Below, in pieces: positions 6,077-29,153 of a DNA stretch of 30,201 nucleotides (within the stretch, counting starts at the first letter, position 1; each line of letters opens with the position of its first letter). This DNA comes from a virus, in the IMG/VR virus record IMGVR_UViG_3300035698_017862, positions 1-30,201 of that record; one strand, 5' to 3'. Made by a program: the position numbers and the translations under genes. The notes below the pieces were generated by a model that was not told the DNA's origin, ran no database searches, and saw nothing but the letters and a program-made list of their open reading frames with translations.

Positions 6077-6508
6077 ATGACAACATTTAGAAATGATGGA
6101 AGAAACGTTCAAGAATATCTCTATGATTTTGCTGTTAACGGCGGCGCTACTGGCGCAATCGACTTGAGTGCAGGTAAAGCTATGCCTCAAGGTGCAATCA
6201 TTAAGAGTGTCACACTTAAAGTGGTTACTGCTGTAACTGGGACTAGTTCCACTGTTGCAGTTGGTAACACAACTGACCCAGACGGATACATGGCTGCCAT
6301 TGCTGAAGCGACTCTCGTTGATGAGTTTGTTTCTGGTGAAGGCGTTCAAGCCGGTGCCCTTTTGTGGGATGACACAAACGATCACGCAATCCCATTCTTG
6401 GTAAATTCTGCCAATGATGCGGTTTTCTCGATCACAGTTGGTACGGCTGACTTAACAGCAGGTAAACTACTTTTCATGGTAGAGTACCTATTGCCTAGCC
6501 AAGACTAA
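6077..6508 (+). CDS. Putative head decoration protein
   Basis: A 143-residue beta-rich protein with AGGAAAGGAG as ribosome site, 15 bases after the capsid gene and before a terminator hairpin. It is rich in Gly, Ala, Thr and Val with alternating hydrophobic strands (IIKSVTLKVVTAV, FSITVGTADLTAGKLLFMVEY). Such small beta proteins after the capsid gene commonly trim or cement the shell. I do not recognise a named family. Position and composition are the only support. Confidence 0.6.
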   Translation: MTTFRNDGRNVQEYLYDFAVNGGATGAIDLSAGKAMPQGAIIKSVTLKVVTAVTGTSSTVAVGNTTDPDGYMAAIAEATLVDEFVSGEGVQAGALLWDDTNDHAIPFLVNSANDAVFSITVGTADLTAGKLLFMVEYLLPSQD

Positions 6509-10664: not shown

Positions 10665-11843
10665 ATGGCCATCAATCAGATTAAAACGCAAACGATCGTC
10701 GCGGTCAATGCAGAGTCCACTGAAGGAACCTACGCTGTACCAGCTGACGCGAGCACTTATTACTTTCAGCCCATAGCTGACTCCATTGAAGTTAGTCCTA
10801 GTAAGGATTTACTAGATCGAAATCTAATGACTTCGGAGCTCAGTTCTGCCACACCTAGACTCGGACTTGAGGGCGTAACAGCCAGTGTCGGAGTTGAGCT
10901 TCGAGCTTCTGGAACTGAGGGTGAAGACCCTGATTTCGGACTGTTCTTAGAGTCATTACTGGGTGCAAGAAGACAGGTTACTTCTCAGTTCACAACAGGA
11001 ACAAGCCACACTACTTCAGTACTTAACGGAACATCTGTTAGCAGTACTTTTACTGTTGGTGACACGATCATTATCTTAGATAGTGGCGATCACACCATGC
11101 ATACAGTGACTGCAACTGACGCAAGTACTTTAACTTACTCGCCAGTACGGGGATCAGCTCCTGCTGATGCGGTTGCTGTTTCAAAATCAACTACTTATTA
11201 TCCTGCTCAAAGTGGACACAAGTCATTGTCTCTTTCTACTTACTGGGCAAATCAAATTAGAGAAGCTTCAATTGGATGCAAAGTAGCTTCAATGAGTCTT
11301 GAGAATTTCACTACCGGTTCAACGGCGCAAATGACGTTTGGACTAGAGGGATTGAGCTTCACAAGAATTGATGGGGCAGCACCTCACACACCGGCATACG
11401 ACGCCGCTCTTCCTCCAGTCCTCTTGAACGCTTGTATCTATATCGACGGAGTAGTCATTAGTGTTAATGACCTTGGATTGAGTGTTGCAAACACTGTCTC
11501 CTTTGTTAAAGACCTATGTAGCTCTACTGGAAAGACTGGATCAAGAATTACTAAGAGGGAAATCACAGGAACGTTGAACCCGTACATGGATGACACGACT
11601 TTTGCAAACTTCACTAAGTTCAAAAACGGGACAACGTTTGCATTGATCGCCCAAGCCTACACACCTAGTTCAACAACAGGTGAGATTGAGCTTGGAACAG
11701 GGGTTCAGTTCTACCTACCAAGTTGTTTGATTACAGAAGTTCCAATCGGAGATGTCGACGGTATTTTGACAGACAACATTAGCTTCACAGCTGGTGGTGG
11801 AACAGACGGTACAGGCGACGAAATCTATATCGGAATGGTGTAA
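10665..11843 (+). CDS. Major tail tube protein
   Basis: A 392-residue protein with a CAGGAGAG ribosome site. It opens with a typical tube-protein phrase (TIVAVNAESTEGTYAVPADAS) and contains many beta strands with a Ser/Thr-rich insertion at about residues 120-185 that may be a surface domain. It ends in ITEVPIGDVDGILTDNISFTAGG, a pattern common in tail tube proteins. It lies upstream of the frameshifted chaperone pair and the tape measure gene, the standard order in siphoviruses and myoviruses. No sheath gene is seen, so a non-contractile tail is expected. Confidence 0.82.
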   Translation: MAINQIKTQTIVAVNAESTEGTYAVPADASTYYFQPIADSIEVSPSKDLLDRNLMTSELSSATPRLGLEGVTASVGVELRASGTEGEDPDFGLFLESLLGARRQVTSQFTTGTSHTTSVLNGTSVSSTFTVGDTIIILDSGDHTMHTVTATDASTLTYSPVRGSAPADAVAVSKSTTYYPAQSGHKSLSLSTYWANQIREASIGCKVASMSLENFTTGSTAQMTFGLEGLSFTRIDGAAPHTPAYDAALPPVLLNACIYIDGVVISVNDLGLSVANTVSFVKDLCSSTGKTGSRITKREITGTLNPYMDDTTFANFTKFKNGTTFALIAQAYTPSSTTGEIELGTGVQFYLPSCLITEVPIGDVDGILTDNISFTAGGGTDGTGDEIYIGMV

Positions 11844-12296
11844 GTGGTTAAGATTTATCCAAAAGATACCCGAATTGATATTAAGGTTGGGGATATGGTT
11901 TTCCAGGTCTCTCCCCTTGGTGTTAACGAGAGGTTGAAGCTCTCCTCGCTCAAACGGATGAAAAGCGGCGAGGATCAGACCGTCATTGTGCAATACCTAT
12001 ACGAGACATTGCGACTGTCTTTAAAAGACGTATCGGGTATTGAGACTGAGTCAGGTCCATATAAACTAAGACGGGATGCGGAAGGTTTCGTTCATCCCGA
12101 TTGTATGGATGAGCTCTCCCAAGTTGTTGAATTGCCTGTTGTTGCTAGTGCAGCATCTAATCAGATGAATGGATTTGAACCTGAAACTGACCTAGAAGGC
12201 GTTGAGATTCGACTTGGCTCTGTAAAAAAAAATACAGACAAGACGAAAGAATCCCAGTCGGACTCCTCTACCTCACCAACAAAATCCAAGAAGTAA
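11844..12296 (+). CDS. Tail assembly chaperone, short form (lambda G-like)
   Basis: A 150-residue protein starting with GTG immediately after the tail tube stop. It lies between tube and tape measure genes, the place of the tail assembly chaperones that hold the tape measure protein during assembly. The N-terminus is a strand-rich domain (RIDIKVGDMVFQVSPLGVNERLKL). The last 25 residues after the slippery site are low-complexity Lys/Ser/Thr (KSQ, SPTKSKK), typical of a sequence that is simply what follows when no frameshift occurs. A nine-A run at 12224-12232 places codons as GTA AAA AAA AAT, so ribosomes can slip to the -1 frame and make the long form. Confidence 0.82.
   Translation: MVKIYPKDTRIDIKVGDMVFQVSPLGVNERLKLSSLKRMKSGEDQTVIVQYLYETLRLSLKDVSGIETESGPYKLRRDAEGFVHPDCMDELSQVVELPVVASAASNQMNGFEPETDLEGVEIRLGSVKKNTDKTKESQSDSSTSPTKSKK
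12224..12233 (+). promoter_or_regulatory. Programmed -1 ribosomal frameshift site
   Basis: Nine A's followed by T, read in the zero frame as GTA AAA AAA AAT. Both A-AAA-AAA (12224-12230) and A-AAA-AAT (12227-12233) are canonical X-XXY-YYZ slippery heptamers. The -1 frame has a stop at 12203-12205, just upstream, and is then open through to TAA at 12743-12745. No ATG, GTG or TTG occurs in it before 12347. This is the arrangement of lambda G/GT and many other tail chaperone pairs. Confidence 0.85.
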
Positions 12297-12745
12297 GCGA
12301 GCTTACGCAGTCAGAGTATCTTCATCTTAAAAGCTCCCTTGAGGCTGTGTATTCACCTAAGTTTAACTGCAACAAATGCCTCTCTCAGTTTCAAAGCAGA
12401 TCCGATGGAGATCAAATGCTTGAGAAGAGTAGAAAGCAAAAAGGATGTTTTGAGGCTAAGGATTACGCGGTGCATAGTGTTAAGGTTAATGAGTTAGACA
12501 GAATTTATTACACTAAGTGTCCTGGAAACTTTTTCTCAGAAGAGATTTACACGTTGCTTGAGATGCATGAGGCATACGAAAGGGGTATGTTACCTTTTAG
12601 TGGTGCCTATTGTGACCAGCCGTATAAGATCATCGAAGTTTTTAGAGTGATAGAAGGCGCTAAGCAGGATAAAATAAATCAAGCACAACGTGAATCAGCG
12701 AGTAAAGCAGGGGTAAATGGCCGAAAAAGTCACGATCGTCGTTGA
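12230..12745 (+). CDS. Tail assembly chaperone extension (T-like part, -1 frame)
   Basis: The -1 frame part of the chaperone fusion. If slippage occurs on the A run, the fused protein has about 300 residues: 129 from the short form and 171 from here. The segment just after the slip reads as normal protein (IPVGLLYLTNKIQEVSELTQ). A free-standing start would be GTG 12347, with a poor ribosome site. A CNKC pair at the beginning of that part, with later GC and TKCPGNFF cysteines, suggests a small zinc-binding fold. The helical C-terminus (LLEMHEAYERG) ends inside the tape measure gene, overlapping its start by 29 bases. In known systems the long form is made in small amounts and recruits tube protein to the tape measure. 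Confidence 0.8.
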   Translation, partial: KYRQDERIPVGLLYLTNKIQEVSELTQSEYLHLKSSLEAVYSPKFNCNKCLSQFQSRSDGDQMLEKSRKQKGCFEAKDYAVHSVKVNELDRIYYTKCPGNFFSEEIYTLLEMHEAYERGMLPFSGAYCDQPYKIIEVFRVIEGAKQDKINQAQRESASKAGVNGRKSHDRR

Positions 12746-14537
12746 GGGCGAAGGAAACATCACTGAGTTCCTGAAGACCGCAGAGAAAGCTACTAAAAGC
12801 TTTAATGGTTCTGCTGAAAAGGGATTTAAAAAGTCATCTCGTGCGTTTGATGTATTCAAGGGAACGCTTGCCTCGTCTGCTGTTACCAAGAGTTTTGAAG
12901 CACTCAATCGTGCAGCGAAAGCGTTATTCAAAACGTTTGTCACTGACGGTATCCGTGCAGCACAAGTTCAAGAAGATGCAATCAATCAACTGAACATTGC
13001 ATTAGTACAGTCCGGACAATTCACAGCCGAGACATCTAAAGAGCTTCAGGCTTATGCATCTGAACTTCAAAACACTACCAAGTTTGGTGATGAAGCGATT
13101 CTCAGCACTCAAGCAATCATTCAGTCTCTTGGTCAGCTTGATAAAGAAGGATTAAAGAAAGCAACAGCAGCTACCCTTGACTTATCAGCGGCACTTGGAA
13201 TTGATTTAAATGCAGCGACTATCTTGGTTGGTAAAGCAGCAACAGGTGAGGTCTCCTCATTTAGTCGGTACGGTTTAACGATTCAAAAAGGTGCAACAGT
13301 ATCTGAGACTTTCGCAAGAGCACTAGAAGGAATTAACTCTAAGTTTGGTGGAGCAGCAGCAGGACAAGTTAAAACATTCTCGGGTGCCATTCAGCAATTA
13401 GAGAATACGTTCGGCGATACCACTGAGATCTTCGGAAGTTTCGTAACAGAAAACCCTGCAGTTATCCTCGCATTTAGTGGGATTTCTAAAGGCTTAATAC
13501 AGCTTCAAAAGGTATTAATCTCAAACAGACCATTTCTAACTTCATTCATTACGGGCTTTGTCGAGTTTGCAATCAACCAGGGGCCAACGATACTCAGTGT
13601 TGCTGAATCGATCAACATTGCATTTACAAGAGTAGAACAAACTCTTCGTGGGTCAGCGATTGCGGTTGCTGGACTTAAGACAGGTTTTGACATTGCAGCT
13701 AATTCGATCAACAAACTAATCCCAGGTCAAGATGAGTCGGTCGCTGCAACAGAGAGACAAATTGAATCACAGTTTGCTTTTATCGCTGCACAAGAAGAAG
13801 CGATTGTTCGATCAGAAGAGGGATTGATCAGAAGGAAAACTCTTTTTGAAGAAGCTGCTGTTATTGAGGCTGAGTTTAGAACATCAACACTAGAGGCTAT
13901 TAACAACGTAGAAGAAAACGATGTCGCATCTCTTGAGAGAAGATCAGCAGCGAATAAGAAGTTACTCGATCAGCAAAAGAAAGATTTAACGATCTTTGAA
14001 AAGGCTGATAAGACAAGCGCCGAACAACGGATTGCAACCACTCAAGATTCTCTTGGTAGAATATCTACACTTCAACGAAGTTCAAACTCAACATTGTTTG
14101 CCATCGGTAAAGCAGCAGCTATTTCTCAAGCAACCATTGATGGAATCTTAGCTGTACAAAAGGTGTTAGCAACCATTCCATTCCCATTCAGTATTCCGAT
14201 CGCAGCACTCGTTGGTACAGCAACGGCTGTTAACGTTGCAAAGATTGCATCCACTCCACCGCCGGCATTCCAAACAGGTTCAGCCTTCGTTGAAGGACGA
14301 CCAGGTACAGACAATGTTCCTGCATTCTTAACCAGAGGTGAGAGAGTATTTACTACTGAGCAAAACAAAGACTTCACTAGCTTCTTAGAAGAAGAAAGAG
14401 GTACTCCGGCATTGATTGCATCCCTACTTGGTGGCATTCAAGGGAGTGGTACTCCGATTGTGATTAACATTGGTGGAAGACAACTAGTCAATACGATTAA
14501 CGACGAAATTAGAGCAGGAGCAGTGTTAACGGTATGA
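12717..14537 (+). CDS. Tape measure protein
   Basis: A 606-residue protein with a CAGGGG ribosome site, overlapping the chaperone frame. It sets tail length and is ejected ahead of DNA. It is mostly helical: Ala/Lys/Gln rich N-terminal half, a coiled-coil region near residues 340-470 with NNVEENDVASLERRS, then a hydrophobic segment (IPFPFSIPIAALVGTATAV). The C-terminal end carries the AFVEGRPGTDNVPAFLTRGE motif that I know from many tape measure proteins. By the usual rule of about 1.5 angstroms per residue the tail would be around 90 nm. No peptidoglycan hydrolase domain is seen. Confidence 0.9.
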   Translation: MAEKVTIVVEGEGNITEFLKTAEKATKSFNGSAEKGFKKSSRAFDVFKGTLASSAVTKSFEALNRAAKALFKTFVTDGIRAAQVQEDAINQLNIALVQSGQFTAETSKELQAYASELQNTTKFGDEAILSTQAIIQSLGQLDKEGLKKATAATLDLSAALGIDLNAATILVGKAATGEVSSFSRYGLTIQKGATVSETFARALEGINSKFGGAAAGQVKTFSGAIQQLENTFGDTTEIFGSFVTENPAVILAFSGISKGLIQLQKVLISNRPFLTSFITGFVEFAINQGPTILSVAESINIAFTRVEQTLRGSAIAVAGLKTGFDIAANSINKLIPGQDESVAATERQIESQFAFIAAQEEAIVRSEEGLIRRKTLFEEAAVIEAEFRTSTLEAINNVEENDVASLERRSAANKKLLDQQKKDLTIFEKADKTSAEQRIATTQDSLGRISTLQRSSNSTLFAIGKAAAISQATIDGILAVQKVLATIPFPFSIPIAALVGTATAVNVAKIASTPPPAFQTGSAFVEGRPGTDNVPAFLTRGERVFTTEQNKDFTSFLEEERGTPALIASLLGGIQGSGTPIVINIGGRQLVNTINDEIRAGAVLTV

Positions 14538-24474: not shown

Positions 24475-24898
24475 CAGACCCCTTAAAATCAGTCTGAGGT
24501 GGTTTCTGTGACCTATCGCTGCCCCGCTTTTTAGTCTCAAGCTCTAAATCTAGCTTTTTGAACTCCGCCTCGATGTTGGCGACGCACTGGTTCGTAACCT
24601 CCTCTGGGATCTCGACTGGCTCAGATCCAAACCGGTCTAAAATTTTGTCTTGAATTGAGTAAGATTTACCACAACACAGTTTGAATTGTTCAATACAGAT
24701 TGTTGCAATATGCAAAAACGCTTCGCCGGTTAATTTCTCTAGCTCAATGTTCTTCGGATCTTTTGCAACAAGTGCAATGGCTCGGTCGTAGTTGTTAAAA
24801 GCATGGGTCCAAATGTTGTTGTGGCTCTTGTCCGCCCACTCAATCACCCCGCTGGTATAAATTTGTTTTACTCCATCCAGTATGTTTTGACTTTGCAT
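24422..24898 (-). CDS. Helical protein with acidic-aromatic tail in replication operon
   Basis: A 158-residue protein. Start taken at ATG 24898 with AAAGGAC upstream; a longer frame to 25006 lies within the helicase gene. Helical body (NNIWTHAFNNYDRAIALVAKD and LTGEAFLHIATICIEQFKLC), linker with Ser/Lys/Pro, and a final GASVDQDWDSFL. The acidic end with aromatic and hydrophobic residues is like SSB tails and suggests binding to a replication partner. Overlaps the helicase by 59 bases on the same strand, and the zinc-finger gene by 53 bases on the opposite one. Family not recognised. Confidence 0.62.
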   Translation of the reverse strand: MQSQNILDGVKQIYTSGVIEWADKSHNNIWTHAFNNYDRAIALVAKDPKNIELEKLTGEAFLHIATICIEQFKLCCGKSYSIQDKILDRFGSEPVEIPEEVTNQCVANIEAEFKKLDLELETKKRGSDRSQKPPQTDFKGSVSPFDGASVDQDWDSFL

Positions 24899-25766
24899 AA
24901 AAATGTCCTTTCGCAAACCCTTCACGTTCGTCGTACCTAACACCGTTTTCAGTTTTAAAATAAATCTTTGAACCAACAGCTCGCCCGCGTCGTCGCATCT
25001 TTGCAATCATCAACTCACGATCACCTGGTTGTGCAAGTCCAGAGTCAAGCGCTTCTTGCGAAACACGGTTCCACAAGAAAATATTCGCAGACTCCTGTAC
25101 GGCTGTACTTGATCCCTTCACGTCAAACTCTGATTCAACACGACCACTGATTGTTTTTTTTGGGTGCATGATCATAATCAAGTGAATCGGAACTTCTTTG
25201 CAGAACATAATTAAATCATGAATGACTTTGTCCATCTCTTGAACTGCTTTATTCGCACTGACCACTTCCAAAAAGAAATTAAGATTGTCGATGATAGCAA
25301 CGCGGACACCATTTGTTTCTTGCATGAATCTAAGTTCATCCATCAGCGTTTCTGGTTTGAATCGGTCTTCGTATTTCGATAACCAAAGCGGGGCGTTTTT
25401 TAACTTCGTTTCGTTCTCAGTAAAAAATTTTTCAACTTTTTTTTCATCAACGAGGTCTCCGGTGTTCCAATCATGATCATCCATAACAGAAATAATTCTT
25501 CGACCATAATCAACTGGGCCTGTCTCAACGCTTGCAACAAAGTGCGGAACGTTGTCTTTAACAAAGCATTCCGAAAGGTTGCTTACGAAAGTTGTTTTAC
25601 CAACTCCCGTTGCTCCACACAAAATTGAAAACTCGTTTGGTCTAAATCCACCCGTTGCCTTTTGAAGTAACTTAAAACGCGTGACGTTTGCAGCAGGTTG
25701 AATTGTTAAGACACTGTTAGTGATGTCAGGTATTAAGTATCTAAGCTTTATTGAATCGCGCGACAT
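24840..25766 (-). CDS. RecA-fold replicative helicase (DnaB/Twinkle-like ATPase)
   Basis: A 308-residue protein made of the C-terminal motor of DnaB-type helicases. Walker A GATGVGKTT is at residues 51-59, after a FRPNEFSILCG strand. A Walker B strand (VAIIDNLNFFL) follows at about residue 159. Later segments (LIMIMHPKK, SGRVESEFDVKGSSTAVQESANIFLWNR, IAKMRRRGRAVGSKIYFK) match the hexamer-type motifs H3/H4 and arginine-finger region. It lacks the DnaB N-terminal domain and any primase domain, so it depends on host primase and probably on a loader. Gene order with the initiator suggests unwinding of the phage origin. Confidence 0.85.
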   Translation of the reverse strand: MSRDSIKLRYLIPDITNSVLTIQPAANVTRFKLLQKATGGFRPNEFSILCGATGVGKTTFVSNLSECFVKDNVPHFVASVETGPVDYGRRIISVMDDHDWNTGDLVDEKKVEKFFTENETKLKNAPLWLSKYEDRFKPETLMDELRFMQETNGVRVAIIDNLNFFLEVVSANKAVQEMDKVIHDLIMFCKEVPIHLIMIMHPKKTISGRVESEFDVKGSSTAVQESANIFLWNRVSQEALDSGLAQPGDRELMIAKMRRRGRAVGSKIYFKTENGVRYDEREGFAKGHFYAKSKHTGWSKTNLYQRGD

Positions 25767-25774
25767 AGGACTTC

Positions 25775-26521
25775 CTACAAATCATCGATCGTTCCTGCAA
25801 CCAAAGAATTTGAGTTCGCGGAATTAGATTTTCCCCAATCAGGCTCCAAAACATCTTTCCAGATTTGTTTACTCATGAACGTGTCAAACTGCGGGATGTA
25901 CTTTGGCTCGGTGGCGGCGGCGCGGTGGAATGCGGCGAATTGAAGAGTTGCCTGGCTTAGCTTTTCAAGATCATCGAGGGAAGAGATCTGGGCCTTGGCC
26001 AATTTGAGGCCTCTCTGCTTTCCAACCTTCCGAGGGTAATCTTGATAGATAAGCTCAAGATCACTGAATGTAATCCGAACTTTTTCCCTTTGGTGAAGTT
26101 GACTGTCTTGCTCAAGAGTTTGAGCATATATCAATCTATCTATCCCTCTATCTAGGGCCAGATCCGTACGCTCCGTATCGTTTAAACACGTTTCAACACG
26201 TTCAAACACGTTTTCTTTGTAACTAACCGTAATCATTGAGTTGGATTTTAGCTTTTTTATGCAATTCTCAATTGTTGCTGTTTTTGACTTAATAAAATCT
26301 GAAAAGTACTCATACTTGATGATAATTGTCGATGATCGCTTGTGATGAGCATAACTGATCAAGCAAATGGCCACATATCGCTCGGCGTCAGTGAGTCCCC
26401 AAAAACCGTCTGAGGTAAACCAAAGGTTCGTGAGCTTGAACCATTTAGCATTAGCAACGTCCGCTCTTGCCTTGTAGTCGTCTAAATTATTGATCGTAAT
26501 GGTGATGCTATCGTCGTGCAT
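25775..26521 (-). CDS. Replication initiation-like protein (winged helix, lambda O-type)
   Basis: A 248-residue protein. I take the ATG at 26521, since its minus-strand leader carries ACGGAGGAATA, a near-ideal ribosome site. A longer frame to 26656 lacks one and is AT-rich. After a short beta start (DSITITINN) comes a helical winged-helix region (WGLTDAERYVAICLISYAHHKRSS, then TIENCIKKLKSNSMITV), like phage O-type and replisome-organiser proteins. The C-terminal third has the YPRKVGKQRG-AKAQI pattern and ends with YIPQFDTFMSKQIWKDVL, as in DnaT/DnaD-like helicase loaders. It is likely to bind the origin and bring the helicase to it. Confidence 0.75.
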   Translation of the reverse strand: MHDDSITITINNLDDYKARADVANAKWFKLTNLWFTSDGFWGLTDAERYVAICLISYAHHKRSSTIIIKYEYFSDFIKSKTATIENCIKKLKSNSMITVSYKENVFERVETCLNDTERTDLALDRGIDRLIYAQTLEQDSQLHQREKVRITFSDLELIYQDYPRKVGKQRGLKLAKAQISSLDDLEKLSQATLQFAAFHRAAATEPKYIPQFDTFMSKQIWKDVLEPDWGKSNSANSNSLVAGTIDDL

Positions 26522-26630
26522 TATTCCTCCGTTGTTTATTGCGTCACAGCGGAGAGTATGAGATTGTTTCCCCGCTGTTTTCTCGTGGGTAAAGCCACGT
26601 TTTTTAAAGCTATCAAAGTTCATTAGTTTG

Positions 26631-26667
26631 TTACCTAGGGCCTGGCTAATCGTCAAGCTCTAGGTAA
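26631..26667. repeat. Inverted repeat in the divergent replication/RusA intergenic region
   Basis: TTACCTAGGGC (26631-26641) and GCTCTAGGTAA (26657-26667) form 11-bp arms with one mismatch, around a 15-base centre. It lies between the divergent initiator (start 26521) and RusA (start 26680), a place for operators or an origin. Its right arm ends 12 bases before the RusA ATG. Confidence 0.6.
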
Positions 26668-26679
26668 TGATGAAACCGC

Positions 26680-27168
26680 ATGAGCCTTAACGAAGCCCGC
26701 CCCTTGTCAGCAGAAGAATTCGATAGCATTGAGATTGAAGGATTCCCAATCCCACCATCGGCAAACCATCTTTATTCAACCTTTGTTAGAAACGGAAAGA
26801 TCATTCGCGTCTCATCAAAAGAATATGCCCATTACAAAAGAGAGTGTGAAAAGTACTTTCTTTATAGAGTTCAAGAGTTTGATTTCGCAAGACAGTTCAT
26901 GCAAGACCAAGTCAAAAAGCACATGGTGTTTCATGTTAAGAGAACTTTTTTTTTAGACTACTCAAAGATTTACACCAAGAAACAAACAGTAAAAAAGTAT
27001 GACGTGACCAATCGAATTAAGGCGTTAGACGATCGGGTGTTTGACCACCTTGGTGTGGACGATAGTTATATCTTTAGCGGAGAAGAAATAAAAATTCAGT
27101 CACACAGAAACGAAGTAGATATTGAAATAACAGCGGTTGACCCAGTTGTTTATCTCGAGCAAAAATAA
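26680..27168 (+). CDS. rusA: RusA-family Holliday junction resolvase
   Basis: A 162-residue protein. The N-terminal PIPPSANHLY motif is followed by KKYDVTNRIKALDDRVFDHL with Asp108, Lys114, Asp117 and then LGVDDSYIFSG (Asp127, Asp128), the acidic active-site pattern of RusA endonucleases. These cut four-way junctions and resolve branched replication products before packaging. Length is slightly more than the usual 120-140 because of an extra 20 residues at the start. ATG 26680 has no strong ribosome site. It stands apart from the minus-strand replication operon. Confidence 0.85.
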   Translation: MSLNEARPLSAEEFDSIEIEGFPIPPSANHLYSTFVRNGKIIRVSSKEYAHYKRECEKYFLYRVQEFDFARQFMQDQVKKHMVFHVKRTFFLDYSKIYTKKQTVKKYDVTNRIKALDDRVFDHLGVDDSYIFSGEEIKIQSHRNEVDIEITAVDPVVYLEQK

Positions 27169-29112: not shown

Positions 29113-29153
29113 AAAAAAAAACGGGGTGATCAGCCATCGAAACCAATCACCCC
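29113..29153 (-). terminator. Rho-independent terminator-like hairpin on the minus strand
   Basis: On the minus strand GGGGTGAT, a 15-base loop and ATCACCCC make a perfect 8-bp stem (29123-29130 with 29146-29153). It is followed by G and then nine T's (complement of A's 29113-29121). It would stop minus-strand transcription arriving from the late-operon side. On the plus strand there is no T tract. Confidence 0.7.

Follow-up and report, generated by a model that had tools for sequence, protein, structure and literature searches.

A candidate lambda-type -1 frameshift at a run of nine A's in the tail assembly chaperone genes of an uncultured phage family

A conserved -1 frameshift in long-tailed phages was reportedly described by Xu, Hendrix and Duda in 2004. 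The conserved -1 frameshift of the tail assembly chaperones of these phages, lambda G/GT included, has been reviewed (PMC5009743), and efficient slippage at nine A's is known from bacteria and from Thermus dnaX (PMC5009743, PMC1088944). Here we describe a stretch of 30,201 nt from an uncultured phage (the window; IMG/VR record IMGVR_UViG_3300035698_017862), in which the computed gene order is tail tube (putative), ORF1, ORF2 and tape measure. This is the order typical of tail assembly chaperone genes. The best explanation for the locus, to which we give a probability of about 0.78, is that short and long forms of a tail assembly chaperone are made by a ribosomal -1 slip at a run of nine A's (A9). 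The features are as follows:

10665..11843, plus strand: gene for a putative tail tube protein, 27% identical to a protein annotated as tail tube in Agrobacterium phage JP1; its TAA stop abuts the ORF1 start
11844 (GTG)..12296, plus strand: ORF1, putative short form of the tail assembly chaperone (gpG-like), 150 aa, from the ORF reading and the predicted fold
12206..12296, plus strand: overlap of the two frames; at 91 nt, one of the longest in the family
12222..12233, plus strand: candidate slip site GTA AAA AAA AAT, with the A9 run at 12224-12232 and then a T
12234..12296, plus strand: zero-frame tail of the short form past the slip site, 20 codons and a stop, of low complexity (TDKTKESQSDSSTSPTKSKK)
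12233..12745, plus strand: ORF2 (-1 frame), putative gpT-like part that extends the long form at its C terminus, from codon usage, conservation and predicted structure
12368..12379, plus strand: CNKC, which supplies the first two of four cysteines that closer relatives share
12717..14537, plus strand: tail tape measure protein gene (phrog_3336, E 6e-17; phrog_9483, E 6e-14), sharing 29 nt with the end of ORF2

Layout, slip site and predicted folds

A sequence-only reading of this DNA had placed the two ORFs between tail tube and tape measure, which the JP1 and PHROG matches bear out; the upstream protein shares 24-27% identity with isolate tail proteins, of which one is annotated as tail tube. 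The same reading had described the junction, and each part of that description holds. The zero-frame codons are GTA at 12222, AAA AAA, and AAT at 12231-12233, and both overlapping slippery heptamers, A AAA AAA (12224-12230) and A AAA AAT (12227-12233), lie in phase. In the -1 frame, a TGA at 12203-12205 precedes an open stretch from 12206 to the stop that ends at 12745; the earliest ATG, GTG or TTG there is the GTG at 12347, a poor start since its GAGG sits just 2 nt upstream. The fusion, predicted at about 300 residues, has a computed length of 300, and past the slip the short form ends in a low-complexity tail, as had been claimed. Elsewhere in the window, on the minus strand (24840-26656), a DnaB-like helicase gene (phrog_239, E 9e-36) adjoins one for a replication initiation protein (phrog_270, E 7e-11).

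Under the frameshift explanation, most ribosomes would read ORF1 through the stop at 12294-12296 to give the 150-residue short form, which would be expected to coat the tape measure protein as lambda gpG does. A minority would slip back one base at the A9 and continue in the -1 frame to 12745, giving the rarer 300-residue fusion, whose extra domain would, by analogy with lambda gpGT, recruit the tail tube protein. For this phage we infer the occurrence of the shift, the ratio of the products and their binding partners; judging from the sequence, the fusion itself is very probably made.

A9 runs as such are not rare in the window (3 observed on both strands, 1.84 expected), and it is the phase and place of the run that count. 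The other two A9 runs lie at 29113-29121 (plus strand) and 26946-26954 (minus strand). When we scanned 4741 in-gene segments of equal length (91 nt) from this phage, none held an in-phase A AAA AAN, and 7.8% held any in-phase XXXYYYZ. The longest stop-free off-frame stretch in the other structural genes of the phage is 106 codons, and none reaches 180. We count against the frameshift explanation the 64-70 nt that separate the slip site from the zero-frame stop, a distance among the longest in the family (the median from heptamer to stop in relatives is 13 nt).

Pfam and PHROG scans of ORF1 and ORF2 gave no match, and scans with 67 members of each gave nothing reliable. Since known chaperones diverge strongly, missing homology in these collections is no defining failure for membership in the lambda G/GT type. 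The AlphaFold2 model of ORF1 (pLDDT 88.2) was closest among solved structures to YqbN (3klu, Z 6.8), a Vibrio PICI protein (5ir0, Z 6.6), the HK97 tail assembly chaperone (2ob9, Z 5.0) and rbstp2171 (3fgx, Z 4.9), with the next row at Z 2.3, and many of its matches among predicted viral structures (BFVD) are annotated as tail assembly chaperones. Over 88-90 residues the HK97 chaperone and Bacillus YqbN are thus like ORF1 in predicted fold but unlike it in sequence (7-9% aligned identity), and they belong to a different sequence family. ORF1 is predicted to have the tail assembly chaperone fold; the Z values are only supportive, but they agree well with the place of the gene.

The AlphaFold2 model of ORF2, taken from 12260 on, has a pLDDT of 95.3; no neighbour stands out among solved structures, where the best match has a Z of 4.5 and the matches are helical proteins. 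PDB sequence profiles gave chance-level matches only for both proteins (zinc fingers for ORF2). A CNKC-type cysteine set had been noted in the fusion, and it is present, with C49, C52, C75 and C99 invariant in an alignment of nine closer relatives (A2), but it is not universal across the wider family. A zinc site, if present, is therefore not essential to the family.

Frame relation and heptamers in relatives

Since searching IMG/VR directly with ORF1 alone or ORF2 alone gave no matches, we gathered relatives from IMG/VR via the tail tube and tape measure proteins, together with an ORF2 profile. A tail-tube profile found no match in GTDB genome contigs. Scanning every stop-to-stop stretch with profiles of ORF1 and ORF2, whatever its frame, gave 177 IMG/VR loci with both ORFs, or 91 after dereplication at 90% ORF2 identity; another 22 loci were left unpaired, including distant isolates and loci matched by one or neither profile. 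We found ORF2 in the -1 frame at all 177 loci, with none fused and none in +1.

An in-phase X XXY YYZ heptamer lies within the overlap at 87 of the 91 dereplicated loci; in an earlier set of 67 loci, the overlap held one in 63 cases compared to a single case in equal-length stretches just upstream. The heptamers are mostly A AAA AAG (39 loci), G GGA AAG (15) and A AAA AAA (14), followed by C CCA AAG (6), A AAA AAC (4), G GGA AAC (2) and a few others. The four loci missing a canonical heptamer in the overlap count against the frameshift explanation. At L078, L091, L108 and L012, ORF2 is in the -1 frame yet the overlap is without a canonical heptamer. The sequence-only reading had looked to relatives for a conserved A run and a conserved frame relation: the frame relation is kept throughout, while the A run varies in length (none, A6 to A9) with ORF2 always staying at -1. 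Together, the frame and heptamer counts support its main claim of a programmed -1 frameshift in tail chaperone genes; that the ribosome, and not RNA polymerase, slips at this particular A9 is what we infer.

Other junctions were seen in the same collection. At L016 (1265-1280) the junction reads AGG GGG GAA TAA and includes GGGGGAA, a motif reported for SEA-PHAGES chaperones (PMC10885494). Two tape-measure relatives with an apparently different chaperone have an A9 at the junction and an open -1 frame, L014 (4662-4670; GAC AAA AAA AAA GAC) and L017 (4669-4677; GAA GAA AAA AAA AGT).

The conserved frame relation bears on whether the two frames could be an artifact, with a true run of A10 and a single open frame, or else a broken, decayed gene. 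Homopolymers are prone to error, and the window comes from one virus contig; however, the -1 relation is kept in 177 contigs (91 lineages at 90% ORF2 identity) as well as in isolate genomes, and many of these loci have heptamers without long homopolymers. We consider an assembly error or a decayed gene extremely improbable.

Isolate phages have the same layout, with ORF2 in the -1 frame in every one: P24, JP1, RcZahn, P11VFA, I4 and RHph_Y1_11. The nearest cultured relative that we found is Alteromonas phage P24 (MK241539.2), although its tail tube homologue is only 25% identical; its ORF1 ends GAA AGA AAA AAC TAA, and, as in the window, a -1 ORF precedes the tape measure gene, here with a CDNC motif. 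The slip heptamer is A AAA AAC in Agrobacterium JP1 and Rhodobacter RcZahn, G GGA AAC in Rhizobium P11VFA and I4, and A AAA AAC immediately 5' of TGA in RHph_Y1_11. Annotation of the second ORF varies among these records. In P24 (L002, 5982-6283) the annotation omits the -1 chaperone ORF lying between ORF1 and tape measure; in Rhizobium phage RHph_Y1_11 (L008 2920-2970, L007 1-382) it is unannotated and split by the record start, with A AAA AAC TGA at the record end; and in Agrobacterium phage JP1 (L003, 6519-6704) the annotated gene is a 5'-truncated form of a -1 ORF opening near 6351.

ORF2 could instead be made without any frameshift, as a separate protein starting at GTG 12347 or another weak start and coupled to ORF1 termination. 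GTG 12347 does stand 5' of the CNKC motif, and the ORF2 of RcZahn has a TAATG start. The 2-nt spacing of the GAGG speaks against this, however, as does the DNA from the slip site to GTG 12347, which has coding-like -1 codon usage (per-codon log-likelihood -4.04 vs -4.35 and -4.49), is conserved in relatives and is confidently predicted by AlphaFold2 to form two helices. A protein begun at GTG 12347, residue 30 of the model, would lose these conserved helices 1 and 2. Relatives with a conventional ORF2 start had been named as the finding that would tell against a frameshift, and we found no conserved start: the first start codon falls anywhere from 9 to 237 nt past the slip site, and the first ATG, GTG or TTG lies inside the conserved ORF2 domain at 50 of 67 loci. 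What is conserved instead is the heptamer and the frame relation. Since the stretch before the GTG is coding-like, conserved and helical and the start positions in relatives are scattered, a separate start is very improbable.

Stimulatory signals and the slipping machine

In E. coli dnaX, frameshifting is stimulated from the 5' side by an upstream Shine-Dalgarno sequence (PMC5009743). Across the 87 heptamer sites we found that Shine-Dalgarno-like motifs of the AGGA/GGAG/GAGG type peak 10 nt 5' of the heptamer, with 20 at exactly 10 nt and most others at 7-13 nt. The window has no such motif 4-16 nt 5' of its heptamer, the nearest being an AAGG some 25-30 nt away. A stimulating stem downstream of the slip site had also been suggested as a check; we folded the RNA and found no downstream stem in the window that beats shuffled sequences (z +0.3 to +1.3), and downstream structure is only weak family-wide (mean z -0.67 vs -0.10, p 0.03). 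Since the window has neither an upstream Shine-Dalgarno motif nor a downstream stem, we do not file it as a dnaX-type stimulated frameshift.

For the family, the Shine-Dalgarno-like spacing and the non-homopolymeric heptamers favour slippage by the ribosome, as mixed heptamers such as G GGA AAG, C CCA AAG and G GGA AAC fit the ribosome and not RNA polymerase. In this phage too, the ribosome is probably the main slipping machine.

A nearly identical protein product would result if RNA polymerase added one A (A10) or lost two (A7) at the A9 and ordinary translation then gave the fusion, so that only the slipping machine would differ. A run of nine A's is well documented for slippage by bacterial RNA polymerase, and it is the length found in the window. 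Among slip sites of the 91 loci, run lengths are A6 25, A7 11, A8 11, A9 14 and A10 or more 0, rising again at exactly nine, compared to A7 117, A8 17 and A9 2 in the background (747 kb of flanks from the same loci). The missing A10 is no argument by itself, since the background is also without A10. The A9 runs are found in all three codon registers, and A8-A9 sites mostly lack a Shine-Dalgarno-like motif (present at 4/25 vs 39/62 of the others; Fisher p 1e-4), although this contrast is not significant when relatedness is counted (about 8 independent pairs). The near-identical contigs that we compared included no A9 sites. On the other hand, an in-phase ribosomal heptamer lies inside every A8-A9 run, so the two machines cannot be told apart from the sites; branches with G GGA AAG or C CCA AAG offer RNA polymerase no long homopolymer; and lysine enrichment at the codon preceding the heptamer could have lengthened the runs.

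Since the A8-A9 sites are poor in Shine-Dalgarno-like motifs, runs are enriched at nine, and slippage at A9 is documented, we regard polymerase slippage as a live rival for this phage, albeit an unlikely one. We likewise raise only tentatively the idea that in some lineages, including this phage, a Shine-Dalgarno-stimulated ribosomal -1 shift was replaced by polymerase slippage at an exact A9. If true, transcription would set how much short tail chaperone is made relative to long. With its many slip sites, which vary in heptamer and in having or lacking upstream stimulators, the family could help to find out how phages tune the short-to-long ratio and whether transcription can take over from translation as the step that slips. 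The finding also gives a rule for annotating the family's missed second ORF.

Comparison with known systems

Like the window as we interpret it, the dnaX gene of Thermus thermophilus and the A9-bearing IS elements express more than one frame at an A9 tract; there, RNA polymerase is the machine that slips (PMC1088944), whereas for the window we favour the ribosome.

The lambda G/GT genes share with the window the order of tail tube, short form, overlapping -1 frame and tape measure, and an X XXY YYZ heptamer close to where the first ORF ends. In fifteen dereplicated relatives the heptamer is GGGAAAG, that of lambda itself. Unlike lambda, the window uses an A9 (A AAA AAA / A AAA AAT) with no stimulator detected, and neither Pfam nor PHROGs recognises any of its family's proteins. 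The lambda G/GT logic first proposed for this locus is supported by the gene order, the overlapping -1 ORF without a proper start, the conserved heptamer and the predicted fold of ORF1. Altogether, this is an ordinary but well-supported case of a known lambda-type trick in a chaperone family that is itself unlisted, and with it a large, mostly uncultured family absent from Pfam and PHROGs joins those with a lambda-type chaperone frameshift.
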